From Tetradesmus obliquus (taxonomy: Eukaryota; Chlorophyta; Chlorophyceae; Sphaeropleales; Scenedesmaceae), in contig CP126198.1 in NCBI GenBank assembly GCA_030272155.1, positions 1,364,001 to 1,428,000 on the forward strand: a stretch of DNA of 64,000 bases, given 5' to 3'. Position 1 is the first letter of the stretch. Each line of letters starts with the position of its first letter. Positions 29,831 to 54,377 of the stretch are shown in pieces. Both the position numbers and the translations under genes were made by a program. The notes beneath the pieces were generated by a model. That model was not told where the DNA came from, did no database searches, and saw only the letters and a list, made by a program, of their open reading frames with translations.

Positions 29831-29887
29831 CGATGCAACTCAAGCAACTCATGCACCTCATGCACCTCAAGCTGTCATGGTGTGATG

Positions 29888-32800
29888 TCAGGCGCCGTCG
29901 CTTATCGACATGGCTAAGCTGAGCGGCTCGGCCTGCAGCCGCTCACACACATACGGCATCAGCGCCTCAGGAAAGCACGCCCACCAATATACTGCCCCCG
30001 GCTGATCAACAATCCACCCCCACGTCCACGCCGCGTACGTCACGACGTTCGGGTTTGCCCACAAAACGTTCGAAATGAGCAGCAACACTTTCAAATCCGC
30101 AGAGGTGGGCGCCTTGCTGAGCCACTTGTAGCTCTCAGGTTTTTTAGCCATTCCGCCTGCTGACCACAAACCCAGCCAGAACGAGTCTAGGTTGTGTGGC
30201 GGCTGCGACAGCGGCCTCAAAGCCGCATGTATGGCATCGTCCGTGTCGCTCGCTAGGTGACCGCCGGCTCTCACACACACTGCCTCTGCTTCCGGTGCTG
30301 TGAGCAGCGGGTCTCTGTAAAGGTCGAAGAAACCGCCGCCTGGGCGGGCCAGCGTGGCATTTGGCACCGCTGCATACACAGGCAGGCAGATAGCGGGGCA
30401 ACACCAGGAGGTTACATCAGTGTTGTAAGCAGCCCGGGACAGTGTAGATGCATGCAGGTGACGGATGCACAGCCGGGAGGCAGCAGCATACAGCGCCACT
30501 GAGACGGCATGATTTAATTGTACAGCCTCATCCTGCTCAAAGTCAAGAAGGTCCTCCTGCTCAAAGTCAAGAAGGTCCTCCTGCTCAAATTCAAGAAGGA
30601 GATTGCATTCCTCCAGTTATTGTTATTCGTTGTGAAGTGCTTGAAGCCATGACAACAATGTCATTGCTTAAACACGTGCAAGATAGAAGCCGCCGCTGCC
30701 TGAGGGGGGGGGGGGGGGGAGGGAGGGGCAGCATGGCATTCAGCAAGGCTTCAGGTAAGGCAGGCAGAGGGACAGGAGAGGAAGATGATTGTGTTGGTGT
30801 GGTAAGCGGTATCAAGCGGTTCAAACAAACAGCACAACACCCTGGCAGGCAGAGGCACGTGAAGGATGCTGCGCAGCATGACTGAGAGCCGCAATGATCA
30901 TTTTACACTTTTCTGCTTGCAGCCATGCCAACCGAGGCACGGTCCTGTTACATAACATGTTATGTTTGTTATGTTCAAGGTAGAAAACGCCTGGGCGGAC
31001 CGGCTGCACGCTAGAGCAATCAAGACTTGCCACCCCAGCCTCTCACCTATCCTGCAGTCCGCTGCTTCATCATGTGCCGACAGTACTCTGCCTGCCATTG
31101 CCGCCCCCTGAGAGGTTATAAGTCCCTTGGAGCACGGCGTGCATCTAGCAGGCCCGAAAGTATCTTTGTAGCTTCCCTCAGGGCAAATGTGGCATCCCCA
31201 GCCCACTGCAAAAGAGCCAGGAGGGCAATCTGCAATGCAGCAGTGCAGGAGGACACGTGAAGAGGCAGACACAAACAACAGAGGAGTGAGAGGGCGTGCC
31301 TAGGAAGCATTATTTGCAGCAGTGCACGATTGGGGACCCTGATCAACCACCGCAGCCACAGCTGCACCACCATGCTGTACGCCGGCACACAAACACAAAG
31401 CCAAGCGACCACAGCCGCCACAAGCCGCAACACACCCAAAACACGCATCAGCAGAGCAGCCTGGCCAGCAGCAGCATGCAACAAGCTCTCTGCTGCTTCA
31501 CATGCACACATGCAACACTCCCTTCTCTCGACCTTGAACCGAACATATTTCCACAGCAACCCTTGCCAGTGCACCCTTCGATGCTCTGCCCAAGCCACAC
31601 AGCCTCAGCTGCACTACAGCCGCGTGCGGCACAACATTCAAACACTCTAACATTACACAACAACTGGCAGTACTGCTGTCATGCAACATCCACGCTTGCC
31701 AGCGCACCTTTCGGCACCCCGCCCGAGCCCCGCAGCCACAGCTGCACCACAGCCGCGTGCAGCACACACTCCCTCACTGAACAACAACTGCTGACTCGCA
31801 TCAATCAATCCTCGCCAGCGCGCCTTTGGGCACCCCGCCCGAGCCCCGCAGCCACAGCTGCGCCACAGCCGCGTGCAGCACAACATTCAAACCCTCCGAC
31901 ATCACACAGCAACTGCTGATACACAAAATCCACGCTTGTCAGCGCACCTGTGGGCACCCCGCCCGAGCCTCGTAGCCACAGCTGCGCCACCGTGCTGTAC
32001 GCCGGCACGTTCCACACGCCGTCCACCCACAGTGACAATCGCCGCAAAACACCTGAAACACACATAACCAGCGAAGCCCTGTCCAGCAGCAGCAGGCAAC
32101 ATGCCGTCTGCTGCTTCACATACACAATGTAACACTCCTTCTCTCGACCTCGAACCGCACATAGTTCTACAGCAATCCTTGCCAGCGCACCTTTGGGCAC
32201 CCCGCCCGAGCCTCGTAGCCACAGCTGCGCCACCGTGCTGTACGCCGGCACGTTCCACACGCCGTCCACCCACAGCGACAACAGCCGCCACAAGCCGCAA
32301 AAAACCCACAACACGCACCACCTGCCCAACAACACCACGCAACATGTGTCAGACAAACACACAGCAAGCTCTATCATATGCTTCACAAACACACAGCAAG
32401 CTCTCCTCAAAACACCCCATGGCACCCACTGCTGACATGAAGAACAACCCTTGAGCTTGCCAGCGCACCTTTGGGCACCCCGCCTGAGCCTCGTAGCCAC
32501 AGCTGCGCCACCGTGCTGTACGCCGGCACATTCCACACGCCATCCACCCACAGTGAATTCGCCTCAAACGCCATGATATGCTTCATACTTGGCGCATTCA
32601 CCAGCTCCGTTAGCTGCGCCATGCTGTGCCCAGGAAGCGGGCTGTACCCCGTCTGCATCCGCAGCAGCTGCAGCCCCGACTGCGGCGCGGTGAACGTGTC
32701 CTGCGAGTATCCGGACGTCGTTATATCGTTGCGCCCGGTCGTGATGTATTTGAAGCTGTTGGGCTCGCTGGATTTCAGGTGTATCGCGCCCGCGCCGTTT

Positions 32801-33044
32801 CTGACGTAGAAACGGAACTCCGACAGCTTCGGCAGCGCCCCGAGGACCGCAAAATCCATGGTGCCCCACGAGCCCCCAGGGCCAGAGGATTTGCTCTCGT
32901 CAAAGCCAAGCTCCGTGTTGTTTAAAATAGGAAAGCCGTCCTCATCGAGCCGGCGCATGCGCGTGCGCGGCGCGGTGCCGGCCTTGCGGTTGTAGTTCAT
33001 GGCCAGCAGCCAGCCGCCGCCGTCAGTCTGCATGTCGCAGTACA

Positions 33045-33077
<33 letters not shown>

Positions 33078-33245
33078 GGCGGCACTGCGTTGAGAGTTGT
33101 AGTTCATTGCCAGCAGCCAGCCGCCGCCGTCGGTCACCATGTCGCAGTACACCTGGCAACAGCAGCAGCAGCAGCAGCGCATTGAGAGTTGTAGTCCATT
33201 GCCAGCAGCCAGCCGCCGCCGTCGGTCACCATGTCGCAGTACACA

Positions 33246-33282
<37 letters not shown>

Positions 33283-36200
33283 GCGTTGGGAGTTGTGACG
33301 CTGTGGCATGGCCTTGCAGTTGTAGAACATGGCCAGCAGCCAGCCGCCGCCGTAGGTCTGCATGTCGCAATACACCTGGCAGCAGCAGCAGCAGCGGCAG
33401 CAGCAGCAGCAGCAGCGCGTTGAGAGTTGTGGTTCATTTCCAGCAGCCAGCCGCCGCCATCGGTCTGCATGTCACAGTACACCTGGCAGCAGCAGCAGCA
33501 GCAGTCCGGTAAGCGTCATGATACTGTTGCATGGCCAGCAGCCAGCCGCCGCCGTCGGTCACCATGTCGCAGTACACCTGGCAGCAGCAGCAGCAGCAGC
33601 GGCAACAGCAGCAGCAGCAGCGCGATGAGAGTTGTGGTTCATTGCCAGCAGCCAGCCGCCGCCGTCGGTCTGCATGTCGCAGTACACCTGGCAGCAGCAG
33701 CAGCAGCAGTCCGGTAAGCGTCATGATACTGCTGTATGGCCAGCAGCAGGCCGCCGCAGTCGGTCTGCATGTCGCAGTACACCTGGCAGCAGCAGAAGCA
33801 GCAGCAGCAACAGCGGCAACAGCAGCAGTGCGTCGCGAGTTGTAGTTCATGGCCAGCAGCCAGCCGCCGCCGTAGGTCTGCATGTCGCAGTACACCTGGC
33901 AGCACCAGCAGCAGCAGCTGCAGTGCGTTGAGGGGTCTTGACGCTGCGGCATTGAAGGCCGCCAGCCGCTGCCTTGATCTAGCTATATTAGTGGTACTGT
34001 GTAGGGCACTGAGCAGCAGCAGCAGTAGCAGCAGCCACAGCAGCAAGGCTGCAGACGCAATGGCACACACATGCATGTTGCAGGTCGTTATATGGAACAC
34101 ATGTCTGGCGCGTTACATTGGTTATGTCAACAAAGAAACATATTTTGTCCTACTGCTCCATGCTGTCATGCAACCCACCTGGTACTGCTTGCCGTTGATG
34201 GTGACAGGGTACACGCCGCTGACATTGGTGACGCCAATGTACTGGTCACACAGCAGGTAGTCGGCAGCTGCAGGCATGCAGCGTGCAGCAAAAACAGATC
34301 ATGGAAACTTCGAATCGCGGCTCAGACACACCCAAGTGAAGTGCCAGAGATACGATGTCGCTGTTGGTGCTGCTGCTGCTGCTGCATAACAGAATTGTGC
34401 CTGCAGATGATGCTGTCGTTGGATTCGGCAACTGCGCGCACTAGCAGCCAGCAAACAAAGTGCTTGCTGCCGCCGCTGCTGGTACACACCTTGCACCTGA
34501 CCCTGTGGCCCTATTTGGCAACACATTGGCCCATGCATAGTGCGCGCCGCTGCCGCCGCTGCTGCTGCTACTGCCACTGCTGCTACTGCCTACTTGATCT
34601 TATTCAAACATCAAATCACACCTGGCTTGCAGTCGCTGGCGTCATCATGATCTGCAGCAGTCTGGCCCAATGTGACTGTGCCGGATGGGCAAGGCTGGCA
34701 CACGCCGGACCCCACAACTGCACAAAACACGCAGCACATTGCACAAGTCGGGGCTAAGTCAAGTTCAAAGCAAAAGCATTGCAGCAACCCCGAACAGCTG
34801 CTGCTGCTGTCACAGCCGTAGAAGCAGTCAGACTGCCTGTAGCCTAGTAACAATCATTGTATGAGGGAGGAGCGTCGGCTGCTGCTGCCGCTGCCGCTGC
34901 TGCTGCTGGTACAGGCAAGCTTTGAGCAGCGGTGCATGTTCACAGGAGGTGTGGGTGCTGCAGGTGGCTGCCAAACATGGGCTGTAGCAAGATGTCAGAC
35001 CTGCTGCTGCCAATGATGCTGCGCTCAGCATGTCCTGCAAGCTGCTGACCTGTTTTGATAGTGTCATCTGGGCACACAACGCAGCTGGAGCCAGTAACGG
35101 CCTGGCCAGGAGGGCACTCTGCGCAAGCAGCAGCAGCAGCAGCAGCAGCAGCAGACGTGTTTCTGTTGTAGTTCTGCCTGCTTGACTTCGCTTACAAGCA
35201 GTCTCCTGCATTGCGCATACTACAGATGTAAAATAGGCCTATGAGGCCAGCACCCTACAGAGAAGCTAGCTTCAACAGCTCCATGCTTGGAGGCATGTAC
35301 AGCACTACATGCACTGCTGAACACAAACTGCTGCCTCATGTGGCTGCGGACAACAGCAGCAGCAGCACCCGCCCAACACCAGCAAAACAACACCCAGCAG
35401 CAGCACCAGCAGCAGCAGCAGCAGCAGCACTCACCGAGCTGCACCAGTGTGTTGAACATAGTGGGGCTGATGCCGCACACATGCAGCCTCACTCCCCCAA
35501 GGCTCCTCGATAAGTCCGGCTGCTTCTGCGCCTCATCCAGGTATGTAAACACACCCCGCTTCGCATTGTCCTGCACAAACTGCAAAATATCAAGCTGCAG
35601 GAACTCAGCCACGCCTGCAACCCAGTCATCTTTTTGCCCCATGTACCAGTAGCAGCCTGGGGATTCGGCGTCAAGCTCGATTGGCCGCTGCTGCAGCTGA
35701 GTAGGAGCCGCAGGAGCCAATCTGCAATTCATGGTGTATGTCTCCTCCACATTGCCGACGCCAGCAGCACCGTAGCTGACTTTGACCAGGCCATTCCTGC
35801 CAAAGCCAGGACCCAGGGGCAGCAACACCCACCAGAAGAATGCTGCGTTGTCGTACCTAAGCAGTAGACAAAAGCAGCACGCACAGGGGAGCAGCAACAG
35901 CTCCAGCGAGTGAGTCAGGGTGAGTTGAGCAACGTCCTGCAAGTGCTGCTGCAGGTGCAGGCAGGATCCGGCAGGATCCTGCAAGCGCTGCTGTAGTTGC
36001 AGGCAGAATCTTGCAGATCCTGCAAGTGCTGCTGCAGCTGCAGGCAAGATCTGGCTGCTGCTGCAGATAGGAAAGCTCAACAGGAACAGAACATAAAGCT
36101 GATGAAGCTGACACACTTGCTGTCATGCAGCTGCTTGTGCTTGTTCATGGGGTCGCTGCCGCTGGTGACACCGCTGCTGCTGCTGCTGCTGCCGTCGCTG

Positions 36201-38575
36201 CCTTGCTTTGGAAGATAAGAACATCTTGTAAGTGCTGCTGCATGCTGTCAGTGCTGCTACTGCTGCTGCTGCTGCTGCTGGTCATAATCATCAAATTACC
36301 AGTCAGGCCCTAGCTGCTATATCAAAAGTGCCACTTGCGCAAAAGCACTCACCCCACCAGTGTCACTGCCACCCGCAGCACGCCGGGCGTATCAGGGCCC
36401 ACCGTTGTGTTGTAAACGCCATCCGGATCCGCATCGAAGAAGGATTTGAAGCTTCCATCAATGATCAAGCTACTCAGCACGCCGCCATTGCGCCTGATCG
36501 CCCCTTGGATCGAATAGAACGCATCCAGCGCTTCAACAGAGCAGCCATCAACTATCCCAAGGCTCCCGCAGCGGCCAGCAGCAGCAGCGCAGGCGTCTGC
36601 AGTCGCAAACATGCCGCTTCCAGCACAGTCTGCACCAGCAAAGAATGCGGCGGTCCTGTCGACTGCCGCCTGCGCGGCGCCCTCATTCGTCCAGCCAGAT
36701 ATGCAGCCGCGCGCGCCAATTGGCGCGCAGGCGTACGCGTATGTCGGCGACAGCTGAATGCCGGCTGCTGGCACCGCTTGCAGCGAGGCGAGAGATGCCT
36801 CCAGCACACTTGACATGGCGCTGCCGACAACTGTTGCGCAGGGCGCTGCTGGCTTGGTTTGAGGCAGGCGGCTCGGGGAACCCATCCAGGGTTCATCAGA
36901 TCTGTATGTAATCGGGGAGCCTGCAGGGCCAAGCAAGCGGCAAAGAGCAAATTCTGACAAATTTTGTAATCCATCTGGAGTTGATTGTTAGTCACTATGC
37001 AGGAGTGATGAAGCAGGCAGCAGGCACAGTGCGAGCACACACATGGCTGCACCCTGCGCGGCCGTGAGCTTGCTGCACAAATGAGTGTGCTTACGGCTGA
37101 AGTGTTAATGGCACTGCTGTGCCTGCACTGCTGCGCCTTCACTGCTGCGCCTGCACGGCTGCGCCTGCACTGCTGTGCCTGCACTGCTGTGCCTGCACTG
37201 CTGCGCCTTCACTGCTGTGCCTGCACGGCTGCGCCTGCACTGCTATGCCTGCACTGCTGTGCCTGCGCTGCTGCGCCTTCACTGCTGTGCCTGCAGGGCT
37301 GCGCCTGCACTGCTATGCCTGCATTGGTCTGTTGGCTGTCTTGAGCCGATATGGCGTCACTGGTGATTGATGGGTGGAACTGATTTTGATTGGTGTTTGG
37401 TTGATGTTCGAATGGTCAGAATAGGTGATTCAAACCATTAAAGTAATGATGATGAGCCTGCTGCTGTGCCCACCTGCCAGGTAAGCCACTGCTGCACTGG
37501 CTGCTGCATCGGTTGCATCGCAGTTGACCATGCAGCCGTTGCGCCTGCGGCCTCCTTTCCCCGTAAACGTCTGCGAGAACTTCAGCATGTCTTGGAAAAG
37601 CTCCAGGACGCTGGGCAGGGGCATGCTCCCTGTTTTGGGCGGCAGTCTGAGCAGGCCGCCTGCGTACGGGAGTGCATTTGGAATCATGTGTTGTACATAC
37701 ATAGAGATTACATGCGTGTGTGTCTCACCACATGCCTGTGGAGTCACCAAGCATGCATGCGGCGCAACAGCGGCACTGCTGCGGCACTTGCTGCTCCTCA
37801 TCTGTGTGGCTGGCATGGGCACACTAGCAGCATAGCATGACTACTCCGCTTGGGTGGGCCCCCTGCTGCTGCTGCTGTCTGCAGGCTGGTCAAACATTCT
37901 CACCGGGCATACAATCAGCACGGGCATTCCTATCTACTGCCCTGATGCCTGCAGTGAAGGTTCCTGCAGGGCATGCCGTGCAGGTCTGCTGCCCTGCTTG
38001 CGGCTTGAATGTGTTTGCAGGACATGTCCTGCAAACGACACTGCCAGCCGTGACTTGCTGCTGCTGCTGACCAGGTGGGCATCCTGCGGTGAATGTAAGT
38101 GGTAAGACGTATTTCAAAAAGTTGTGCAGCAGCTGGTTTGAAACATGATGGCAGCAGTGAGATCAGTTAGGTTTGGGGGCTTGCTGTGCACAGTCATGAC
38201 ACTGTACCGCACAACTACTGCAGCAGCTGCCTGTAAGTCTGCTGCACCTGCATGCTTCACGGGAAAAGGTTTTTACACACATTTGAAATTTTTTGAGGGC
38301 TTGTTGGACATCTGAAAGCAGGCAGAAGGGCCCTGCTCACCTCTGATGCAGGAGGTGCCAGCCAGCACGTAGCCCTGGTTGCATTTCCTCACGCACACGC
38401 CGCGGGCCGTACAGACAGCTGATCCATTTGAAGTGACTTTGCAAGTTGAGCTGCATGTGGCCGACGCGGGCGACAACTTTGTCTCAAAGCCTGCCGCACT
38501 GACGAACAGTGAAAGCGGGAGCAGCACTGCTGATAGCAGCAGGACATAGTGACGGTCAAAAATATATATCTTCAT
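29888..38575 (-). CDS. Secreted pseudoprotease-LysM-fibrinogen-lectin protein (copy 1)
   Basis: Eleven exons: 38575-38341, 38083-37904, 37659-37474, 36920-36353, 35856-35435, 35118-35050, 34717-34622, 34267-34179, 33045-32469, 31229-31047, 30369-29888; all phases join, about 1,028 residues. Order: signal peptide, six-Cys module, GCC2/GCC3 repeat, propeptide, C1 papain-like domain, LysM (GQKDDWVAGVAEFLQLD), GCC2/GCC3, fibrinogen-like start (VYCDMQTDGGGWLLAM), GCC2/GCC3, C-type lectin domain (GGHLAS, WLGLW, YVCERL). By alignment to copies 2 and 3 all three catalytic residues are gone: Cys to Val231 (CATV for CATC), His to Val384, Asn to Leu402 (WWVLLPLG for WWAQNSYG). The fold signatures remain, so it is probably a non-enzymatic binding protein rather than a dead gene: the whole frame is open. 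The second lectin Cys region keeps DQPG but not the WDD motif of its relatives. It is head-to-head with copy 2. Confidence 0.86.
30531..30601. repeat. 3 x 24 bp direct repeat and poly-G, intron of copy 1
   Basis: TCCTGCTCAAAGTCAAGAAG begins each of three consecutive 24-bp units, the third truncated. A run of about 16 G follows at about 30703-30719. Both lie in the intron before the lectin exon. Confidence 0.85.
31330..32560 (-). repeat. Donor-edge array, about seven units (VPAYSTVAQLWLRG)
   Basis: The end of the fibrinogen-like exon (LWVDGVWNVPAYSTVAQLW, then VPK and GT) recurs downstream. The unit inside the exon is at 32560-32469; further copies are at about 32275-32190 and 32035-31950 (nearly perfect, donor kept), then about 31880-31820, 31765-31705, 31640-31590 and 31390-31335 (progressively decayed). 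Spacers carry a shared GCAGCAGGCAACATG-like sequence. Confidence 0.85.
33030..33905 (-). repeat. Nine-unit acceptor-edge array (VYCDMQTDGGGW)
   Basis: Nine copies of a coding-strand block, (CTG)n then CCAG then codons VYCDM(Q/V)T(D/Y)GGGWLLAM, are spaced 93-127 bp apart. On the plus strand they start at about 33045, 33148, 33243, 33369, 33480, 33573, 33683, 33780 and 33893. Only the 33045 copy runs on into a full exon. The third (33243) has lost the acceptor AG (CCATG for CCAGG). None of the eight short copies shows an obvious GT donor before the next CTG tract. Confidence 0.9.
37118..37335. repeat. Minisatellite of 12-15 bp units in an intron of copy 1
   Basis: About 14 head-to-tail variants of CTGCACTGCTGTGC and CTTCACTGCTGCGC lie in the intron between the propeptide exon and the peptidase exon. 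All frames stay open because the unit lacks stops, giving Cys/His/Leu-rich runs that are not proteins. Confidence 0.85.
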
Positions 38576-39071
38576 TAACGGTTAAATTTGCAGCCAATTC
38601 AACCTTCTGATTCACCCATGCCGGCACTTTGCGCTCTGTGCCGTGGGTACAGGTGCAGCAACGATGATTGAAGCAAAACAATAAATATGATTACGTGCAC
38701 AGCTTTCTCTGGACTACAGTTCCTCATAGCCAAAGCTCATTAGATGACGGGTAGAAAGTAACACGCGTGGGCGAATGCTGAAGAAGATTCTCTTGAAGCA
38801 AGAACTTTTGATTCGGTTCGTGTGTAGTAGTACAAAATCAAATTTTGAGCTGACGCCTCAGCGTGCAGGCATCAAGTTGCAATCATCACGCAGGACAATA
38901 CTGCCGTAATCAGGCCAGCTGACATAGTCCATGATCGAATAATTATCACAGAACCTACTTACTGCTGTCGCGTGGCGCTTCGTCCGCTGAACTGTTGGAA
39001 TAGCAGCAGTAGCAGCAGCCCAAGCACTGGCTACAGCTTTAGCGGAGCAGCAGCAGCAGCACGTGCAGCAT
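38576..39071. promoter_or_regulatory. Shared head-to-head promoter region, copies 1 and 2
   Basis: Only 496 bp separate the start codons of two divergent paralogues, so both promoters must lie here or overlap the transcripts. The middle is AT-rich (for example AATAAATATG near 38680 and GAATAATTATCA near 38936). Shared regulation is inference; no specific factor site was recognised. Confidence 0.6.
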
Positions 39072-42000: not shown

Positions 42001-45000
42001 CAGTTGCGAGATGCATCATGTTACAACTATGTAGCGCGGCCCGGTGACTTTTTGGCTGGCATCGCAGACCACTTTGGAGTGGATCTTCTTAGCCTTGTGG
42101 CTCAGAACGCAGATGTCCTTGGCACAACCGCTGCTTTTAAGCCAGACTTGGCAACACCTCTTTCTCGCAAACGGCTCACGTTGTGCGGTGTTACTTCGCG
42201 CCTGTATTCAACATCCATTCTAGGTAAGCTTTGCTTGTGCTATGGACGTAGCTGCCTGTCTGCTGACAAAAGTGGCAAGCACCCCACTGCATTTCCAACA
42301 GCAAATACAAGTATAGGGACGTTGCCTCTTGCTTTGATAGGGCCGGACCTGCACACAACAACTGTATTTCAACCGATGACGTCAGAATGCCTGCAAGCAT
42401 GACCATGGTGTTGCTTCGTTGAAGCGAAGTCTACTGATGATATCTTCACATGGCGAGGTCAGCAGCTGTTGAACATGATAGGCTTGTTGTACCGTATTAT
42501 CAGCTTTAGTGGCAATCAGGTGTTGCTGTGTTCAAAGGATTGCGCGTCATTCAAACATTCAGCTCATCTCATGGTGATGCACGGTGGACGCGTCTTCTGC
42601 TTGCCTTGCAGAGTGTGGTGTAGGGGAATACCAGAGTCAAAGCACTGGTGGTTGCGAGGTTTGCCCTCATGACACATACAAGACGAGCAAGGGGCCTGGC
42701 CCGTGCCAACCATGCGCAACAGGGACCGTGACAACCGGGTGCAGTTCAGCAGACCATGACAACCCTGGGGACTGCACACCAGGTGGGTTGTCTGCCAAAG
42801 CCACGTGGTGTTGCCGCCACTAAAGAGGCTTGATCTGGAATGAACCAAGATCAGGCCTTGATATTTCATTTGTCATTTGTTTCAAACAAATGTGTCACTT
42901 TGTTTTTTTTCTCTTCACTTTGCGTAGAAGGAAAACTGCTAAGGAGAAGGGCCCTTTGTGTGCATGCACTCCCACATGTGTTTTGCTAGCAGCTTGACTC
43001 TGACTACACAATCAAATTGAATCAAATTGAATCGTTCTTGCTTGTTCTCTGCTGCATATGTTGTTCTGTTGGCACCGCAGCCCTTCAACAACAACTATGT
43101 GAGCAGTTCATCGGACGCTTCAACAAGTCCGGAGTGTACAACATCACGTTACGCTGCCAAGTATACCAGGTGCGTCATGCTTTCGATGCAATAATTATGT
43201 TGAACAATCATAGCAACAGTGTCAGCTAAATTGACTTCAACGGTTGAAGTGCCAAAGAATGTGGCAGCTGATGTGGTCTCTGAAACACCGTGTATGCGTG
43301 CGTGCAGGTGTACTGCAACATGGAGACCGACGGCGGCGGGTGGACATTGTTTATGAGCTACAATGTGGAGGCTGGAACGTTTCCCCGTGAAACATACTTC
43401 CGCTCCTTATCCGACGGGTTTCCGTTGCTGAGCGACAACCCACTTGGCACTGATGAAAGCACAAGCACTGGTCCTGGGGGAACTTGGGGCCACATGACTC
43501 CTGCGGCGCTGCGTCAAATTCCCAACTTTTCTGAGTTTCTCGGCGTGTTTGAGACGCTCAACCCTGCCAACCCATCAGATGTCTTGAAAGCACACTACAA
43601 GTCCTCTGATGAAAGAACTTTGAACTTTTTCAGGTCGGAGTACTTGGTGGACTGGATACCAACGGAAGGGTTGAACTTGAACAATATGCGGTGAGGACTT
43701 TGTGGCCACCAACTACAGTGCAACGTTACAGTTCATCTGATGAAAGGCTTTTGTTCAGAAGTTCCCCCGAACGATTGCCAACTTTCAACATCAAGCTGCT
43801 TTCCTTGCCATTGTATTGTTAGATGCCTTTTTAAATAAGGTGTCTAGAGTTGCCTGGGGCATCGTGTATCGCACCACGTTCTACATGCTTTGTAGGCTTT
43901 ACAATTTTTTTGCCATCTCATGATTTATCTGACTTTGACTGACAAGTTGTTGTTCTCGCACGTTGCCTTGCCTCAGGCACTCACACACTCCAATGCCAGA
44001 CCAGAGTGGCTTCATTCCGTTAGATGGAGAAGGAAAGATCATCCCGACCGATTTGTGGTCCTTGGCCCAAGCAGGCCTACCCGTACGACACGCAGTGTAT
44101 TTGCGAGGCACCAATCCAAAACCACCAGGTGAGGCTGTGTGGCACGATATTATTGGCCATGCAAGTAGTCCATGGTTTGGTGGCCATGCATGTGTTTGTG
44201 CCTCACAACATATGTCAATAGCTAGCTTGTGTGCTTGATATAGCAAATAAATTGCATTTGTTGAGGAGCACACATCATGAATGCCTGCTCCACATTGCTG
44301 TTTTGAAACGTGTTTTATTTGCTAAATTCGTGTTGCCAAATTGTGACATGCCGCAGTTTGTGAGGCTGGTTGGTATCAGAAAGGGTGGTCATGCCACATT
44401 TGCGCTGACCATTTTTACAAGGACGCGGAAGGTTCAGGGCCATGCACCCGCTGCCCTCGTGGAAAAGTGTCAGGGGCAGCAATATTTGACAAGCGGGCTC
44501 CTGAAAACCATGACGACAAAAACGACTGCAAAGTCGGTGAGCTGTTGCACGTTTGAAAGATTAAGTTACCCAGTCTGACATATTACTCCCAAGTTGTGTA
44601 TGCAAGTTGTCATGGTTCAAAGGCAACATTGGACAAATTGACAATGTCGTATGTATGCTTTATACCTTACAAGTTTCAAGTTTAAACGCTCCCGTTATCT
44701 TCTAGAACTGCATCTCACCATAGTAGTACGTGGGCAGCCAAGTGATATGCACATGTAAACAAGCTCGACGGAACGTTGTGCGGACCGTCCATGTGAAACA
44801 TGCCAAACAGGTGGCTTATATAGTAACATGTGCTTTGTTTCCTTCCGTTGTGGCCGCAGGTCAACCGGATGCCTCTTGGAACATCACGCAAGCTGACGGC
44901 AGCTTGTGGGTGTGGGAGTTCTTCTGGTCCATTCGTGCACAACCTAAGCACGCTGAAGAAATATGCCAGCTTCGCGGTGGTCATTTGGTCACTGTGACGT

Positions 45001-45683
45001 CTGCAAGCATATCTGCGCAGCTTGCCGGCAAAGTGACGGGGGATGATACTGGCAGGCCTTCGTTTCCTGTCTTGCACAAACTTGACATCTTGTGGACCGG
45101 CTTGCACTCACCAACCGCTACAAGCTCTGCAACCGGCCCATGGTGAGTTGTGTGCGTGCCTACCATACCAGCAAACTCAAATTCAACCAACAGCCTCAAA
45201 TGTGCCAGTGCTATCGGTTGCTAGCTATAGTAGGTATGTATTTTGTGCAATGATGGCTTTGATGTGCAACATTTTCCAACAGTCTGTGTGGTGTACAATG
45301 CTTAATATAGACGTCGACAACATATTGCATTCTTATGCATGCATACAACAAAGCTGAGCGATTGGTGCCACGCGTTCACCTCACACCAGTTTTGACACGC
45401 ATCCATGTGATCTACTTGCAATCATTGCTTGCCAATTGAGCAACATGCACATGCACTGCTTGCCCATTTGTCACGCGTGTGTATATTTTGCAGGGCATGG
45501 TATAGTGGGGAAGCGTACAAATACGGCACTACGTATACAAATTGGGGAGGGGGGCAACCTGACAATTACGGGTATGTGCAGGGACGAAGCATGGCATTCC
45601 TGCTAGACAACCAGAATCAATGGGACGACTACTACCAGTTCATGTATCAAGAGTTTGTGTGTGAGCGGCGGTTGTCGCCTTGA
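39072..45683 (+). CDS. Secreted papain-like protease-LysM-fibrinogen-lectin protein (copy 2)
   Basis: Twelve exons: 39072-39282, 39639-39818, 40178-40415, 40883-41408, 41800-42223, 42612-42782, 43081-43169, 43308-43690, 43977-44128, 44357-44536, 44860-45142, 45494-45683; all phases join, 1,008 residues. Signal peptide about 1-19; six-Cys module to 70; GCC2/GCC3 repeat 71-130; propeptide to 209; C1 peptidase about 210-440 with VQNQGRCASC (Cys222), the Cys-rich SCGSGWAF element, His381 (PHAVIL) and Asn399 (WWAQNSYG). LysM about 455-515 (YVARPGDFLAGIADHFGVD); GCC2/GCC3 527-583; fibrinogen-like 584-791 (VYCNMETDGGGWTL); GCC2/GCC3 to 851; C-type lectin domain to the end (GGHLVTV, QPD, WDD, VCERR; QPD suggests galactose-type specificity). 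N-glycosylation sequons occur, as expected outside the cell. The active site looks complete, so it is probably an extracellular glycan-targeted protease. The substrate is unknown. Confidence 0.9.
39900..40035 (+). repeat. (CAG)n/(CGG) tract in intron 2 of copy 2
   Basis: A coding-strand CAG tract interrupted by CGG lies downstream of the exon 2 donor. It reads CAG, not CTG, and sits on the donor side, so it differs from the acceptor tracts of the CTG-rich genes. Confidence 0.8.
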
Positions 45684-45910
45684 TCTGACAACTCGGCTGT
45701 ACACATGAAGTGCACATTTCTACTAGGGTGGGCGCGTGACCGCTACCCAAGTAAAGCGGTCCTTCTAGAGAGAGATCATTGGAAAGGAGAGTTGGGCATT
45801 TCACATGTGGATTCGGCCCGGCCAACATGTGGTGGATGTTGTCTCCTTTGAAACCCCACAGGGCTTGTGAAGGTTCCACGACATGTTGAACAAAGAGGCT
45901 TTATAGCTTG

Positions 45911-45915
45911 TGTAA
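45911..45915 (+). terminator. Candidate TGTAA polyadenylation signal, copy 2
   Basis: This is the first TGTAA after the copy 2 stop. TGTAA is the usual chlorophyte signal, but a 5-mer is weak evidence. Confidence 0.35.
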
Positions 45916-46809
45916 CTATGTACATCATATCAGTGTATATACATATGTGGCCCCCATGATGCATGAGAGGTGGTTTTTTTCTCCATATTTTTTGGACGGC
46001 TTGTGTGTTGCAGAAAGACGTTGCAATTCTCCATAGATGGAGCAGGAGCACTACCCTTGTTGTGCCGTGGTGATGGTTAGTGCATGCAAAAGTTGCCATG
46101 TAACAAGGTATCTCAAGGGATGCGGTTAACAAGCTTATCGGACGCTAGGCAAGAGCCTGTTAGCGAGCTTGAAAAATTGTGTTTTATCTTTCTTAGCCAC
46201 CTATGGCAAGTTTACAACACCTTTGGACACTCTTTGAATCTTAGCTACTTCGAGGAAGCAGCAGTAAATGTTGCTTTCAACACATCGCCATCGATTTCGA
46301 TGTCGGGTTCGATGCACAATGTGTCAACGTCTTGTGTCACTTTCAATTATGATTGCGTAGTGTGTGGAGCACTACTTCCTCTTCTCACCCTTTTGTCCCG
46401 GCTTCCTCTTTCCTTCGGTGTATCTACACTCCGCGTAGACACAAGGCTGGTTCCCACGTTGTGATGGCGGAATATGATGATCAGTTTTATGAAGTGCATG
46501 TGATAAAAATAGCAACGGCTCAGACATGCGGGTCTCCTACAAGCTAGTGGTCAAATAGTTCGTGACATTGGGTACGTTAACATCGAGAATAGATGACCAA
46601 TGCTGAAATGTCTTGAAATAGTCACAACAAGGTGACGTGGTGGTAACACATCACAGAGCCCTGGCGCAAGGTCGTCGATCGCCATCATGATGGTGATTGG
46701 CCAATGCATGTCACATCACGTCACCGTGATTCTCCCATTGTGTCACACTGAACGGTTTGATCTGCATTACAATTGTTACCAGCAATTGCTGCTGCAACAC
46801 ATGGAAGCA

Positions 46810-46814
46810 TTACA
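46810..46814 (-). terminator. Candidate TGTAA polyadenylation signal, copy 3
   Basis: TGTAA on the minus strand about 250 nt beyond the copy 3 stop; a second lies at about 46768-46764. Weak evidence from a 5-mer. Confidence 0.3.
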
Positions 46815-47066
46815 AACAGTGTCCACACTCCGTTCACACTCAAGGCTTGCGTCAACCACTCAACGGCACCAAAATGTGGAGCGTCGGCCACATAAGTCGT
46901 CAGAAACCCGAGTCAAAAAACACGTCACCCCTTGATCAGTGACATATTAATAAATCGATCATTGATTTCCACTAATCATATTAACATGCACACACGAGCG
47001 CCACCAAGAAATAGTGTGTCACCATGTGTCGCTTACTCCTACCAAGCCTTGCCGTCTGCTTGATCA

Positions 47067-50000
47067 CTAGGTTGTCCTACGCTCACACAGAAACTCCTGA
47101 TACATTGTCTGAAAGTAGTCATCCCACAACTTGTGGTTATCCAACAGGAAAGCAACATTGAGACCTTGCCGATTCACAAAGTTGTCTGGTTGTCTATCCG
47201 CCCACGCTGTGTAGTTGTCTGCGGTGTACAGTGCTCCGTTGTACCACCTCCTGCAAGGACAAGAACATCATGTTGTTCACTGCATTGGAGCATGCCGTTT
47301 ATTGTTGGACATCGCGTGCTCTTGCTGTTTGGAATTTCATGACATCGCACAAATCGTTACATGTCGTAGTATAAACTTGATTACAGTTGTTGAGCTCAGT
47401 GACCGTCTGGGACTTCTTGCCAAAAATGCGTAATGTCAGCACATGTGCAGGTACATACATTTGCAATAAGAAGGGCACGACGTGCAATCAAGCATCACAC
47501 ATTGTCTTGTGTATGATGTGTGAATGACTGGCTACCCAGGTTGCTTTGCTTTGTCTTGCCGCAACCCTGATGAGTGAAAGTTCGGACGTGTGCAAAGCAT
47601 GGTTTGATAACTGGCTATAACTCACCATGGCCCGGTCCTTGAATCGCTTGGTGTCTCTGAGTACAGCCCTATCCACATGACGGTGAGCGCATGAACAAAT
47701 GGGAAAGGTGGCCGTCCCGTTTCGTCACTTGTCACTTTGTCGTATAACAATTCTGATGTGTCAAAGGAGTCTATTGTTACGAGATGACCACCTTGAACGC
47801 GGCAAATATCTTCTGCACGTGATGCTTGGGCTCTAGTCTCCCAATAGAAGTCCCATGTCCAGGCGCTGCCATCTTTCTTGCTCACAGTCCATGTGTTGTT
47901 TGGCACGGCTATAGCAACACACCAAACCAATGAGGTGTGAGGAAGCAGGGTCATGAAATATGTCATACTGAGAGTAGAGGGTTGCTGATTGCGCTCCCGC
48001 ACACCACTTCGTCAAATTGTCACAACATGGTAGGTCCTTTACTTGACTCCTTTTTGGTGACTACAAGGTGACAATCGTCATCATATGGAATTAATATGCA
48101 AGCAAAGCTAGCGTATACTTGCTACAGAACAGTATTCAATTTTCAGCATGACACGGCAACACGTGCTCACCCATTTTGCAATCATTGGCGTTGTCGTGGT
48201 TTGCTGCCGCTCGCGTGCCCGTTACACCTGCAGTCGCAACCGTGCCTTTGGGACAAGGTACACATGGACCTGGGCCGTACCCTTCCTTGAAAGTATGGTC
48301 AGGGCAAATGTGGCAAGACCAGCCAGCCTGGTACCATCCCGGCTCACACACTGCATTGACAGGCAGAAAATTCACATGGGTATCAAGCAAACTTCAGTCA
48401 TGGTACGTTGCTAGGACGTTTGTTGGTTGCGCAGCCCAAACCTTAACCTTCAGCCAAAACACACTGCGTGATCGCCGCAAGCATTGAACCGCTGGGCCAT
48501 GTACGCATTCTAGAGTGGCAGAGGTCATGCGTGTTGTTGCTTTGTGCAAGCACATGCATGGGCAACGCCGCTTCTAGAAAGTTGTTGATAAATCAATTCG
48601 CCTCACCTGGAGGTTGCATGTTCTGTCCTCGTATGTATACTGCATGCCTGACAGGCACACCAGCACGTGCAAACGCCCATAGGTCTGTAGCCTTGAACAA
48701 GCCGAGGCCGTCCAAAGGAATGAAACCGTTTTGATCTGGCATGGGGCTATGAGAATGCCGCAATGTGTTGATGTTGATGTTCCCGCTTCCTTTTAGTATA
48801 TACCTCAGTGACTCTTCATCCGCGCACTTGAAATGTGCGCGAATGACGCCAAGGTTATCAGTTGGATGTGCGACCTCGAACACGGCAAGCATCTCCGCTG
48901 CATTAGGCACAAAAGTCAGTGCACGGGGAGACATGTGTCCCCAACTGCCTCCATATCCAATGCTATCACTTTCATCCACACCAATGGTGTTGTTGCTCAA
49001 GATTGGAAAGCCATCCTCCAAGTCCCTGGGCAACACATCCCTTGCGGTTGAAAATGCTCCTACATTGTAGCTTAGTACCAGTGTCCAGCCCCCTCCGTCG
49101 GTTTGCATGTCACAGTAAACCTGCAACAGAAGATGTGAGGAGTCGCAACATCCTTACATGTAGACACTGCAAGTCGGCCCAAGCAGATCAGCCATCTTGC
49201 TAGTCGACATGGGAGCTTGCGAGCAGCTACCGTCGCTGCCGAGGACCACCATTGCACTGTTGTGCCCACAACATGAAAGCACTCTTATCGCAACTGAATA
49301 CTGCCGAGCACAGCACAGCCTGCGAGAACTCTTTACAAGCGGCTTGTCACCACTCTTGATCGCAAACAATATTGCAATGCAAATCCACCCTACCTTGTAT
49401 TGCTTGCACCGTATGTTCACTGTGTAGGCGCCAGATTGATTGTAGCGTCCTATAAACTGCTCACACAATTGTTGGCCGGTAACTGCAGAGCACACAACAT
49501 ATTGGTGTACGTGACCGTTGTAGCACGTTTGAACAAGGTTGTGGTTGTGGAAATGCCGTGCCTTCATTATGTAGCAGAACTCATGACTGAAGCTGGCGGT
49601 GGTGTACTGTTATGAGAAACAACATGTAATGATGAAAGCTTCATTCAAGTATATCCACAAGACAACTGCGCTCACCTGGTGTGCAGTCAGTAGCAGCGTC
49701 GCGCCCAACAGCCGTGCATGCTGGGGTGGTGGTGCCTTGGGGGCATGCAGTGCACGGGCCTGCCCCGGGCTTGTCTTTGTATGTGCCTTCTGGGCAAACC
49801 TCGCAATCCCCCGAGTCACCTTGATGCTCCCCAGGTCCGCACTCTGCATCCAATACGTGCCAAACAATGTGACTGATGGAGATATTTCAGATTCAAGCTT
49901 GGTACTTGCAACTTCAAAACTTGACATTCAAAGCATGGCTGGATCTCAGACATCTGTTGATTTCATGTTAACATGATTGTTGTCTTAGCACCGTGCATGT

Positions 50001-52905
50001 GACATCGCTGTTGTACTTTCCGAAAGATGAGTCATCTGGCATGTCGGTAGCAAGCTCTGCAACACAGTACCATGAGTGCGGCAACACCCAACAAGACTCA
50101 CGTGTAACAGTGACACGTCACTATGTATTGTTGAGCAAGGGCCACGTGTTGGCAACAAATCATATTGACTCAAGCTGAGCTACAAAGGAATGCGGAACAA
50201 CCCACCTAGACTGGCTGTGTTGTACAGATCTGCAGTGATGCCACATACCAGCAGCTGCTGACCAGCCAAAGGTGTTGTTAGGTCCGGCAAGCCTGCCTTT
50301 GTTGTGGCAAGCAACTTCATGTTGTCTTTGATGAACTGCACAACATCTAAACCAAAATGCTCTGCTACGCCGGCAACATAGTCACCGCGGCGTGCAGTGT
50401 ACTTGTAGCACGTGGTCCCGGATGTTGCTGAGCCCTGCACGACTCTGAGCGGCCATTTCCTTGCAGGGTTTATGGGGTAAGACGGAGCTACTGTGCATTT
50501 GACCGCATACGTTTCGTTGGGGTTGGCAGCTAGCCCTACACCATAAGCTATTTTAAACACTCCCTGGTCTGCGAAGGTTTTGCCGTATGAGTTTTGCGCC
50601 CACCAAAACATGCCTGTGTTGTTGTAGCCGATCTGCACTCAAACACCAAGCCAACACAGAACGGTGAGAAGGAGCAGCCATTGCACATCCTCCAATTCAG
50701 AGAAGCAGTTGACTTGTGTGATGTGTGCATGCATATATAGGCCTCACCATACCTTACCACGTAATATTGGACACCGCACCTTCTGCGTGGCTGCTTAAAT
50801 AATTGAGACATGGCCATGACTCAATGTAAATTTGAGCCTATGACCAGAGCGCAGTGTTAGTTGAGTTGAGGTGGTGGCACTGTCAAAGCCACATGAAAAG
50901 CATTCACCAGCCATCATAGGAGAATGCCCATCACGCTCACACAACACAAACAATGAATCGAGTGCGCAAACTGCAATGGTCAATGCACACCATAATGACA
51001 GTTGTGTGTAACAGTGTGTCACAAACGCGGCGTCTTGGCTCACCAGTACCACTGCGTGTGGCACGCCGCCTGCTGTGCTTGACTTGTTGCTGATCTCGTT
51101 GTAGACTCCACGGGGGTTTCGCCTGAAGTAATCGACAAATGCTGAGTGCACAGTGACCCTGGTGACCACCGCGCCATGAACCCTGATAGCCCGCTGCACC
51201 GCCCAGAAGTCAGTCAAGGCTTCAAAGTTGCAGTCGCGCAACACATCAGATGACGGGCATGTGTACGACACGTCATCGCACGCTGCCGCTAGCTGGCTTG
51301 GAGACAAGCCGCGAATGGCTGCAAAATCATAGCCATCCGTGCAAGATCTTGCGGGTAAGAATGTCCTAGCGGACTGTACAAGGCCTCGCAATGCATCTTG
51401 GAACGTCCATCCAGAACTGCAGCTGCGTAGGCTCACTGGCTCGCAGTAGTACGCGTAAACCGGAGAGAACTCAACGCTCTGGGTGGTGATCCCTGCTGCC
51501 GCTGCCACCGCAGCCTCTGCTGCGCTGACAACTGCTGCGTTGACGCACGTGGCACACTGCCCTTGGTCCTGCACTCGTGGCCTGTCAAGAACAGTATCAA
51601 ACGAGAAAGCACAAGGCACACATCTGAGAGGCACACATGTTGAGCTAGCATGGCTGTGTTGTGTCTCTGCAACATGCGTTTTCTAGCCAATTGCCAGATT
51701 GCAAGGCGTGCTGCAGCACGTGCAGCTGCACGTAACCTGTCAATGGCACAGACAGGGACGACCTACAGATGTTGCTGACATTGTGCCACAGAACATGGCT
51801 GGCTTTGTAGCCAGCTAGCGCACGAGCAATCTTATGGACAACAGTTGCAAACTTGCAACTTGCAATCAACTAGGCTGGTTTGGCTCCTACTTGTTTCGCG
51901 GCATACCCAGCAACACCTGGTTGGGTGTGACAACTTGTGGGCTTCCAGCAATAGAGGCAACAGCTTCTGTCAGGAGTGGCGTTGCATTGCTGCCAGTGCT
52001 GCTGTTGTTCATCCATGGTTCAACATCTCCCGTAGCTTCTGCTGCTGCTGCTTCTACTACAGTTGCTGCTGCACCCCATTGTTGCGACGGCTTGTTGTGC
52101 TTGGTGCGGGTGCTGCGGCTGCTGCTTTGGTTGCGGGCGCTCATGTAGAGTCGTGCCGCCTCTAGCTGCTGCCGGAACTGCTGCCACCTTGGCTGCTGAA
52201 CATTGCTCCTGCTGTCCAAGCCGCCTGTGCAAATTGTGACAGGTCACAACAGCCAAGTCTGTCTACATGTCATGCTTGTATAAAAGAACTGTTCAGCATG
52301 CGAGATGCAGATTGCACTGTGCCACAGCGGCCGATGTGCAGCACTCCAAGATAATGCTGATCTAACAAACAACAAGAATGCATCAGCACATTGACGGCGC
52401 GCACCTGGCAGGCACTTTGCTACGCTATCATAATCAGCAGGCCGCTGGCCTGCTGTGAATGTGCCATTTGGGCATGCTATGCAGCCATTATTTCCCAGCC
52501 TTGGCTTGTAGGTATTTTTTGGGCACACCATGCAGCGTGTGCCGCTTGGGTGTGGCTGCTGCCCCTTGCCACATGTTAAGTTGGCTGCATGCAGCATAGC
52601 CAGCAGTTAGCAGCAGCAGCAGCACAGAGAAGCCAATGTCAGCGGAGCATCTTTGCTGTTTGGGTAGCATGTTTGAGGTTGACGTTGGCATGGTGGCTAC
52701 AGCAGCAGCTGCAGCTGCCTGCAGCACCTACTTGATGGTTCTGGCCTGTGCTCATCAATCAAGCTGCAGCTGCTTTGCCAATCCCGATGTCTGGGTTCAT
52801 TGCACTTGCTTTGACGTCGTATTTGCTGAGGCCGGGTGCTGTTGCTGGCACCCAGCCTGCAAACTTAATGGCTGCTGCTGCATGGCAGTACTATGTCTGC
52901 ATAAC

Positions 52906-52990
<85 letters not shown>

Positions 52991-53281
52991 GTTACTACTG
53001 CTGCTGCTGCTGCATCAGCAGGAAAACTCACCGCTAACACAGATCATTCCGGAACGCTCAAATCCCGAGTTACAAATAGCACTGCATGTGCCGCGAACAC
53101 ATCTGACCTCCCGAGCGTTCGGCACAGCCGGGCAGTCCTGCTGCTTGCTGCACTGAACTGCCCCTGCTACTGCTGGTGCTGGCGCTGCTGCTTCTGGCGG
53201 GACATCTCCCAGGGCTGAACCCACGCAGCTGAAGACCATTAGCAGCAAACCGATCCATTGCTTCGTTCCCCGCGACACCAT
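47067..53281 (-). CDS. Secreted papain-like protease-LysM-fibrinogen-lectin protein (copy 3)
   Basis: Eleven exons: 53281-53032, 52584-52405, 52224-51891, 51581-51044, 50632-50206, 49843-49676, 49482-49394, 49120-48607, 48350-48171, 47908-47626, 47250-47067; all phases join, about 1,048 residues. The domain order matches copy 2. The C1 triad is complete: Cys267 (DQGQCATC), His430 (VPHAVVL), Asn448 (WWAQNSYG). LysM reads YTARRGDYVAGVAEHFGLD; the fibrinogen-like part begins VYCDMQTDGGGWTL; the lectin domain has GGHLVTI, MWIGLY, then RWYNGALY, RQPDN and WDDYF in the small last exon. The fibrinogen-like part is one 514-bp exon where copy 2 has two. The propeptide is longer and low in complexity. 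The start is the first ATG (53281), giving MVSRGTKQWIGLLLMVFS, a good signal peptide. The last exon places the stop at 47067. It converges with copy 2. Confidence 0.9.
52905..53012 (-). repeat. Long CTG/CAG tract in intron 1 of copy 3
   Basis: About 85 bp of nearly pure CTG on the plus strand, which is CAG on the coding strand. It lies just downstream of the exon 1 donor. With the copy 2 intron tract it is an exception to the CTG-on-coding-strand pattern, and both exceptions are on donor sides. Confidence 0.85.
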
Positions 53282-54205
53282 CCATTCGTTCACTGCGACA
53301 CGCTTGGTGTTGCTGCAGGAGGTCTACAGAAGCACCTCCAGCGTAGCTGGCTTTCGAATCGGCGCCTGAAAAACATACTTTGTAGCATTGTAGATATGTT
53401 CAGCAGGGAGACCGGGAATCTACTGCTGTGCAGCAGCGCGGTGAAAATACACACGCGATTACACACGGGCCATGACCTCCCGGCTCTCAATCATCTGATT
53501 CCTTTTAATCAACGTTCGTCCTGCGTAGACACATACTGGGCGCTAGGAAGAGCCCCTGGCCTCTTCTCCGCAGCTTAATCATTGCACCCCAGCCTGACGG
53601 GATGATTCCCATCTGAGTGAGAAGCCTAAAACGTGACTATGGCACTGACAACCATTCGGCTCTGCTTGATTCCGGCGAGAAAGATATCTGCGATGCATTA
53701 GTTGCCACAGGCGCGGTAAAAGGAGCAGGTCTCGACTACTGCCAATGCTGTGGGTTGCAGTACAGCTACAGCCACCCAGTGACTGGCAGTCATTGTACTG
53801 CTGTTCAGCAGAGCCACAGTGTGCGCTGCACGGCAACGTAGACGACACATGCAAGCGATGGGGGGTATGCAATGAAACGAGTTGGATTGCTGCTACTGCT
53901 CACCGCCGTGTCCTGCGTTTGGCGCTGCACCCTCAGGGTGCAGGGCCTGCAGTACAGGCTGTAGGCTGCAACTTCAGGCTGCACTGCAGCCTGCGGCATG
54001 AGCTTCATAATAATAATAAAAATAATAGTCTTCTTGTAAGCCATACCGTGTCATCAGCATGAGCATCATCGTTATGTTACCCATCAAGCGAAACTTTATA
54101 TGGGAGGGTGTGCCCGCCATCGGCCCAGCGCTGTAGCCTACTAGGCTCATGCGGCATGAGCTTGACCCAGCAGCCGGTAGCTGCTGCTGCTGCTGCTGCT
54201 GCTTA
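53282..54205. other. Intergenic, upstream of copy 3
   Basis: This should contain the copy 3 promoter. A palindrome-rich stretch at about 53930-54000 is built from CTGCACCCTCAGGGTGCAG-like and GCAGTACAGGCTG-like words that resemble pieces of the dispersed repeat near 27.2 kb. No gene was recognised. Confidence 0.45.
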
Positions 54206-54350
54206 TCACGCTGCCGCCTGAGCTCCTGTCACTGCTGCTGCTGCTGCCTCCTTCATGTAGAACACAGCCCCAGGTGCGTGGCTGCCGCGGTTTGCAGGCA
54301 GGTCTAGCTGCAGGTCTGCTGCTGTGGGGCCACTTGGGATTATGCCACTG
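54206..54350 (-). repeat. Partial duplicate of the last hydroquinone-reductase exon
   Basis: The end of the last exon (SGIIPSGPTAADLQLDLPAN to FYMKEAAAAA) is repeated downstream, separated from the real exon by a (CTG)n tract. It also ends in a stop. Confidence 0.85.
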
Positions 54351-54377
54351 ACCCTGCTGCTCAAGCTCCTGATGCTT

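Follow-up and report, generated by a model that had tools for sequence, protein, structure and literature searches.

Proteins in which a papain-type (C1A) protease and a LysM stand on one chain have been reported for algae and/or other non-vascular lineages, the lineage itself being unnamed, and a protein with a LysM and two C-type lectin domains has been reported in Chlamydomonas (Van Holle and Van Damme 2019, PMC6362431). In the available part of that source, no GGGWT module, ephrin-like repeat or C-type lectin is named alongside the C1A-LysM pair, and no GGGWT module is named for the Chlamydomonas protein. The three paralogous genes A, B and C described here, which lie in a 64,000-nt stretch of the Tetradesmus obliquus genome (C8:1364001-1428000, C8 being contig CP126198.1; "the window" below), resemble the former proteins in C1A and LysM and the latter in LysM and C-type lectin, and add to these parts a fibrinogen-like module of the GGGWT type and ephrin-receptor-like Cys repeats. 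The original prediction for this locus, which knew of no described family joining such parts, overlooked these partial precedents. It holds in so far as a GGGWT-bearing C1-LysM protein was not found in the literature searched, an absence that is weakly supported, the coverage being mostly of non-subscription papers; the genes appear to encode a new version of protease-lectin proteins known in part.

Volvox VcPap-11, reportedly described by Amon et al. in 1998 as carrying chitin-binding repeats, is perhaps also among the closest known systems. Its response to the sex-inducing pheromone is noted in the available part of PMC2474614, which cites Amon et al. 1998 under a title that couples the pheromone with wounding. 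Chlamydomonas genes encoding C-type lectin and SRCR domains have been suggested to serve immunity or chemoreception (PMC8226300); they too are green-algal lectin genes, but their partners are SRCR domains and no protease is mentioned in the accessible portion of that paper. The Volvox matrix, according to the part of PMC9818292 at hand, holds defence enzymes such as chitinases. The available part of PMC7590803, on the Scenedesmus obliquus genome, mentions neither LysM nor a peptidase.

The paralogues lie in minus/plus/minus order, as originally predicted, and the predicted outer coordinates agree with the last base of the gene A stop codon (29888) and the first base of the gene C ATG (53281). 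The prediction of a cluster of three has to be corrected, as the block that holds these genes is repeated downstream at 99.04% identity, giving six intact genes. The model of gene C was built manually on its splice sites; B and A were aligned to it with splicing, and their models were then corrected by hand. The GT-AG borders of all introns were imposed by this modelling and are no evidence by themselves; what is informative is that each intron-rich frame is free of internal stops from its ATG onwards, and that homologous residues and exon borders match across the three genes.

47067..53281, minus strand: gene C, 1048 aa, open from ATG to stop, GT-AG introns with fitting phases; 11 exons (53281-53032, 52584-52405, 52224-51891, 51581-51044, 50632-50206, 49843-49676, 49482-49394, 49120-48607, 48350-48171, 47908-47626, 47250-47067)
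39072..45683, plus strand: gene B, 1008 aa, from spliced alignment to gene C and manual splice sites; 12 exons (39072-39282, 39639-39818, 40178-40415, 40883-41408, 41800-42223, 42612-42782, 43081-43169, 43308-43690, 43977-44128, 44357-44536, 44860-45142, 45494-45683)
29888..38575, minus strand: gene A (putative pseudo-protease), 1028 aa, from spliced alignment and manual splice sites, open from ATG to stop; 11 exons (38575-38341, 38083-37904, 37659-37474, 36920-36353, 35856-35435, 35118-35050, 34717-34622, 34267-34179, 33045-32469, 31229-31047, 30369-29888)

The order of modules is the same in the three predicted proteins: a hydrophobic N-terminus, a six-Cys module, an ephrin-like repeat, a linker, the C1 region, LysM, a second ephrin-like repeat, the GGGWT (fibrinogen-like) module, a third ephrin-like repeat and the C-type lectin. 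The Cys repeats originally described as spacers of GCC2/GCC3 type are matched in all three proteins as Pfam Ephrin_rec_like above its curated cut-off (54.8-62.7 bits). The proteins are probably secreted, judging from their hydrophobic N-termini alone; that of gene B falls outside the three most hydrophobic 19-mers of its protein.

The protease assignment is best supported for genes B and C, in which Pfam Peptidase_C1 scores above its cut-off of 20.7 bits (53.4 and 46.2 bits, the latter over profile positions 16-207 of 220 and both C1 exons). A profile built from eight family members matched 173 distinct sequences of solved structure at E<=0.001, and the 60 shown are all of the papain family, with dipeptidyl peptidase I first. 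The oxyanion Gln and the catalytic Cys, His and Asn are all present in B and C, which appear catalytically competent by sequence, and all four are replaced in A.

51044..51581, minus strand: gene C, C1, N-terminal part; oxyanion Gln and active-site Cys in QDQGQCATC, and close to the end of the exon the His, in PHAVVL
50206..50632, minus strand: gene C, C-terminal part of C1 with catalytic Asn (IGYNN..WAQNSYG), followed by the LysM segment at about 50410-50240
40883..42223, plus strand: gene B, C1 in two exons, with the LysM segment at about 42019-42189
35435..36920, minus strand: gene A, C1-like region and degenerate LysM; Gln, Cys, His and Asn all replaced

The C-type lectin domain shows the same division. 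With a Pfam Lectin_C cut-off of 22.6 bits, the domains of B and C score above it and that of A below it, and the GGHLVT, QPD and WDD motifs occur in B and C, whereas in the alignment gene A is without QPD and WDD. The expectation that all three proteins would carry the motifs of their domains fails for gene A, which has lost the catalytic and the QPD/WDD motifs, while B and C retain them.

47067..47908, minus strand: gene C C-type lectin with GGHLVT, QPD and WDD; Lectin_C 27.7 bits
44860..45683, plus strand: gene B C-type lectin with GGHLVT, QPD and WDD; Lectin_C 23.3 bits
29888..30369, minus strand: gene A C-type-lectin-like domain; Lectin_C 17.6 bits

QPD is a galactose-type motif, and WND or WDD belongs to the calcium site. 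The closest solved relatives, asialoglycoprotein receptor 2 in a single-sequence search (phmmer) and CLEC4F in a profile search, fit the QPD motif and prove nothing about the ligand. The nearest lectin relatives outside the two blocks lie on the contig of the cluster itself, at about C8:1.07 and 1.10 Mb.

We read these proteins as putative secreted, glycan-targeted C1A proteases of the cell surface or matrix, with defence slightly favoured over wall remodelling, and regard this reading as about equally likely to hold or to fail. The papain-type core would be delivered to glycan-bearing surfaces by the attached binding modules. LysM would bind chitin or peptidoglycan-type glycans, the QPD-type lectin would bind galactose-type glycans in a calcium-dependent manner, the GGGWT module would be a further binding module, and the ephrin-receptor-like repeats would act as spacers. 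Proteolysis, glycan specificity and the biological role of A, B and C are inferred from sequence.

Several observations weigh against this reading. In both B and C the Trp that follows the catalytic Cys is replaced by Val and the Trp of NSWG by Tyr, and in none of the three proteins did the Pfam scan show an I29 inhibitor propeptide at E<=1, so that activity and activation of B and C are uncertain. The LysM segment, which lies after C1 and ahead of the second ephrin-like repeat, stays below the Pfam LysM cut-off of 20.9 bits in B (16.6) and C (15.9) and gives no match in A, the suggested galactose specificity has the QPD motif as its sole basis, and the same parts would suit wall remodelling nearly as well. 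As to the segment, the same alignment columns reach 32.2 bits with Pfam LysM in a paralogue on contig C11. A profile of the eight family members gave 12 matches to solved structures at E<=1; the top one is a chance match inflated by repeats. The other 11, of which four lie at E<0.01, consist for the most part of wall enzymes and a chitinase, which we take to be LysM proteins. The segment is taken here as a diverged LysM. The proposed joining of C1, LysM and a QPD lectin in one predicted chain is supported for B and C, with a diverged LysM; the protease part of gene A is dead by sequence.

The strongest rival holds that the proteins are secreted matrix enzymes of the life cycle, which would loosen the alga's own wall at daughter or gamete release or at mating, LysM and lectin holding them to self glycans. 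Matrix proteases are used by green algae for remodelling and lytic enzymes for hatching (PMC9818292, in the part at hand), and the pheromone response of VcPap-11 mentioned above agrees with such a role, but the wall-degrading protease named in the available part of PMC6362431 is an M11 metalloprotease. The tandem amplification, the dead paralogue and the bacterial-type module fit non-self recognition somewhat better, although none of them is decisive. We consider remodelling possible, if on the less probable side.

The fibrinogen-like module, as such, was correctly foreseen, Pfam Fibrinogen_C being above cut-off in all three proteins (26.7-27.8 bits), yet the match is confined to profile positions 13-68 of 221 and the nearest sampled kin is the bacterial GGGWT family, for which NCBIfam GGGWT_bact (NF040941) is also above cut-off in all three.

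48607..49482, minus strand: gene C GGGWT module, exons 7-8; Fibrinogen_C 27.4, GGGWT_bact 38.5 and bacterial subfamily profile 64.7 bits
43081..44128, plus strand: gene B GGGWT module in exons 7 to 9, with an additional intron; Pfam, NCBIfam and bacterial subfamily profile matches
32469..34267, minus strand: gene A GGGWT module in exons 8 and 9; matched by the bacterial subfamily profile at 83.4 bits over positions 11-205 of 232

When the three algal modules were searched against genomes of bacteria and archaea (tblastn), 57 loci were found. Four of the best bacterial matches, out of 201 residues, cover 12-165 (Myxococcota), 30-165 (Oligoflexaceae), 32-165 (Cytophagaceae) and 31-165 (Deltaproteobacteria). 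This tblastn result used the algal alignment alone and is free of the motif choice that enters the subfamily profile. The latter was built from 15 bacterial modules of 8 of the 70 loci, which were picked because they share two motifs of the algal proteins, W[GR][HN] and D[EDG][SQH], and it is biased towards these proteins for that reason; beside the scores listed above it matched gene C over positions 10-150 and gene B at 57.5 bits over positions 12-97. When the N-terminal hairpin was cut from both sides, 33.0 (A), 23.0 (C) and 16.4 bits (B) remained, against at most 4.9 in 600 shuffles, which were scored with the whole-module profile. The profile of the remaining 62 long modules gave 56.9 (A), 51.8 (C) and 46.2 bits (B), with best stretches of 14-118, 14-60 and 13-101 of 227, respectively.

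In a tree of 55 modules, the 62 unpicked modules were represented by 37 distinct ones, left from the first 40 after removal of repeats. A group supported at 98/98 (the bootstrap not having settled) unites the algal three with one unpicked and 14 of the 15 picked bacterial modules, apart from other bacterial, archaeal and viral-contig modules; the picked L131 fell outside and the unpicked L092 inside. Bacterial GGGWT proteins (NF040941; records L078-L082, L084 and L085), whose module is homologous to the algal one beyond the hairpin, come from Myxococcota, Oligoflexaceae, Cytophagaceae, Flavobacterium, Deltaproteobacteria and Lentisphaeria. Beside the module lie EGF (L078) or F5/8 type C (L080) domains. 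Unlike the algal chains, the three that were scanned (L078, L079 and L080) showed no match to a C-type lectin, a LysM or a protease. The Lentisphaeria record L084 is nearly identical to L085 (Deltaproteobacteria), and one of the two labels may therefore be a binning error. These comparisons point to a bacterial GGGWT subfamily (Myxococcota, Bdellovibrionota, Bacteroidota) as the nearest sampled kin of the algal module, which may have been captured from bacteria. Because it is closest to bacterial GGGWT, what animal fibrinogen domains do, such as the acetyl-group binding of ficolins, cannot be transferred to it.

An alternative, which we hold to be unlikely, derives the module from the same stock as animal fibrinogen domains, its bacterial look reflecting unsampled eukaryotic relatives. 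A profile of the three algal modules matched 47 sequences of solved structure at E<=0.01 (fibrinogens, ficolins, angiopoietins, tenascins, intelectins and the like, with tenascin-R at E 1e-7 and ficolin-2 at E 1.7e-5). Of these, 36 stop by position 68, and the 11 that extend further, to 85-141 of 208 at 24-28 bits, are all ficolins. Moreover, the algal three stand beside the bacterial modules of their group and not among them (82/69), in a tree that included no other eukaryotic module. Against such a descent, the animal matches do not exceed 35 bits and Fibrinogen_C ends by position 68, whereas bacterial relatives match over 12-165 and the bacterial profile gives 57-83 bits, or 16-33 without the hairpin, the scores of different profiles being only roughly comparable. 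Animal fibrinogen-related proteins (ficolins, tachylectins and others) share the N-terminal hairpin SGvY..VYCDMxTDGGGW, and ficolins somewhat more; over the rest of the domain, Pfam Fibrinogen_C gives no match. A whole-length animal-type fibrinogen domain, tried as a candidate, has no Pfam support in any of the three proteins, and ficolins reach at best position 141 of 208.

A GGGWT module elsewhere in the genome searched (104.66 Mb, 17 contigs) was not found. All 10 matches of one search and 11 of 12 in another, in which the best candidates were scored, fell in the two blocks; the twelfth, on contig C3, was below cut-off and covered profile positions 94-168. Thirteen viral contigs (L065-L077) carry GGGWT modules related to the algal one, and those placed in the tree fall outside the algal group. 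In gene A, the first part of the GGGWT exon is present in nine tandem copies; these start within 33045..33895 (minus strand), about 90-130 bp apart, with CTG/CAG runs between them. CAG precedes VYCDM in eight of the nine, and CAT at 33244, where the counterpart in the second block, which also has nine copies, has CAG. The gene A model uses the last of these starts, and the others may be decoy acceptors.

At the catalytic positions gene A has APCATVV (where B and C have QGQCATC), RVAVTLVGY and LLPLG; no Peptidase_C1 match was obtained at E<=1 with the whole protein or the C1-LysM segment, and the latter matched no Pfam family at that threshold. By sequence it is a catalytically dead pseudo-protease. 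Its interpretation as a dead pseudogene is disfavoured, because both block copies are open to the end and the ratio of nonsynonymous to synonymous substitution rates (dN/dS) to gene C is 0.24-0.39 in five of the nine modules, those with unsaturated dS, although such averages include the C branch, so that relaxation of A is possible. The product could be an inactive relative that serves as a decoy, scaffold or dominant-negative partner. That gene A is open and constrained without catalytic residues could also mean that catalysis is dispensable and that the C1 fold is structural in the whole group, the proteins being mainly adhesins that stick cells or matrix together; the presence of three putative binding modules to one enzyme would agree with this. 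However, B and C have retained all four catalytic residues, and of the long modules it is C1 that is best conserved between them (60% identity over 210 positions, compared with 56% for GGGWT and 52% for the lectin), which makes the adhesin explanation quite improbable in our estimation.

Phase-1 introns at module borders are a mark of exon shuffling in extracellular proteins of animals. In genes A, B and C, the six borders between blocks (six-Cys / ephrin-like / linker-C1-LysM / ephrin-like / GGGWT / ephrin-like / lectin) are phase-1 introns in 18 of 18 cases, whereas within blocks phase 1 was found in none of the four introns of C, none of the five of B and two of the four of A. For gene C, with six of six border and none of four inner introns, the chance of such a distribution is 1 in 210 (calculated by hand), and the three genes are not independent of each other. 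Between B and C, dN/dS is 0.12-0.47 in the seven of nine modules with unsaturated dS. In the other two, GGGWT and lectin, dS is saturated and the proportion of nonsynonymous differences (pN) is 0.30 versus synonymous proportions (pS) of 0.82 and 0.86. These substitution rates indicate that both the C1-LysM and the GGGWT-lectin parts are under constraint in B and C and, together with the three-way conservation, rule out chance open frames.

That each locus holds two genes, C1-LysM and GGGWT-lectin being separate transcripts, is highly improbable. In its favour, other loci have the C1-LysM core, and no GGGWT module was found at them; in gene A, moreover, the intron that follows LysM contains one TGTAA, an algal poly-A signal, on the gene's own strand, which goes against a single chain. 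Against it, the corresponding introns of B and C hold no TGTAA on that strand (a scan that is weak either way), this intron (A 316, B 388 and C 362 nt) is within the range of the other introns of each gene, the block order and phase-1 borders are identical in all three genes, ephrin-like exons flank the junction on both sides, and no second start is needed by the models.

The C1-LysM core appears to be a wider family in this genome. The C1-LysM query from C7 gave 84 exon matches at E<=0.1, many of which are probably ordinary C1 genes. Matches to C1 and the LysM region occur on one strand at no fewer than ten loci beyond the six genes of the two blocks (positions in Mb): C7:5.59, C14:3.685, C14:3.785, C1:1.03, C11:3.35, C12:2.52, C13:1.695, C13:4.197, C9:5.37 and C8:1.708, where the C1 and LysM matches come from separate searches. 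In a C1-LysM tree of eight rows, A, B and C form one group (100/100), with A on a long branch. Seven C1-LysM loci outside C8 were read; spliced alignments at such loci are reliable only around C1-LysM, their far ends being forced. Plant-type leucine-rich repeats (LRR; Pfam) lie downstream on the same strand at C7, C14:3.685 and C13:4.197. On C11 (3348927-3353054) two C-type-lectin-like domains follow C1-LysM, the first just below cut-off at 21.0 bits, and at C13:1.695 neither LRR nor lectin was recognised after C1-LysM. From strand and distance we infer that the LRR and lectin followers share a transcript with C1-LysM, and the C-terminal part thus seems to change between members of the family. 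The C11 locus and two loci on C8 resemble the layout of the Chlamydomonas protein with LysM and two lectin domains, as far as it is given in PMC6362431. The latter loci, C8:1069187-1071978 (minus strand) and C8:1099962-1103451 (plus strand), each show a weak C1 (E 0.03 and 0.09, respectively), a LysM and two C-type lectin matches, and are a possible source of the lectin of the cluster.

Further observations concern single loci of this family. After C1-LysM, a tail rich in Gln, Asn and Gly occurs at about 8180-8584 of L044 (C13:1688001-1698000). Two similar regions in opposite orientation on C15 (L049 and L050) show, by eye, a LysM-like segment and LRR-like repeats, and the C1-like part of L049 looks degenerate. 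At the C1 active site of the LRR-followed gene in L051 (C14:3682001-3692000), an in-frame TAG at 3055-3057 marks a pseudogene, an intron or a sequence error.

Taken further, the family might represent an extracellular repertoire resembling innate immunity, in which a secreted C1A-LysM chassis would be combined with interchangeable recognition modules shuffled by phase-1 introns (LRR, lectins, or a lectin with a GGGWT module taken over from bacteria, the donors being perhaps predators such as Myxococcota or Oligoflexia); the genes would have been amplified in tandem, and one or more of their products would be a dedicated pseudo-protease. We offer this tentatively and consider it rather unlikely. 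The locus presents modular extracellular proteins of animal style, with phase-1 borders, in a green alga, and a bacterial-type module inside a eukaryotic protease chain, which is relevant to research on the algal matrix and on how extracellular recognition arose. Should the proteins prove to cleave microbial or damaged-wall targets, they would offer a testable effector side to the question why green algae carry many C-type lectin and "immune" domains.

The block that carries the three genes is present twice:

29851..56539: first copy; the second lies at 64268-90982 in window numbering (C8:1428268-1454982), 34.4 kb downstream, with 99.04% identity over 26,765 columns

The two blocks differ at 141 of 26,640 aligned bases (0.53%), at equal rates inside coding sequence (49 of 9,261) and outside it (92 of 17,379). 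The second copies of A, B and C are open and keep their splice sites. In a base-by-base count, B and C differ between copies by seven coding bases each (three and four replacements, respectively) and gene A by 35 coding bases with 19 replacements; the last exon, which adjoins the block edge, accounts for 16 of these, all at codon 944 or later. Because the differences pile up at both ends of the block and diverged homology, of about 72-89%, continues at and past the left edge, gene conversion may have homogenised the copies of an older duplication. An assembly duplicate as the source of the second gene set is disfavoured, given about 7.7 kb of mostly different sequence between the blocks, 0.53% difference inside them and about 11-28% at the left edge.

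Two further features were noted in the window. Near the edge of the duplicated block, 56632-59696 is an inverted partial copy of 3236-5499 (73% identical). A WD40 match at 12854-14975 (minus strand) and a bromodomain match at 58303-59058 (plus strand) suggest a BRWD-like gene and its fragment, the name being a guess.

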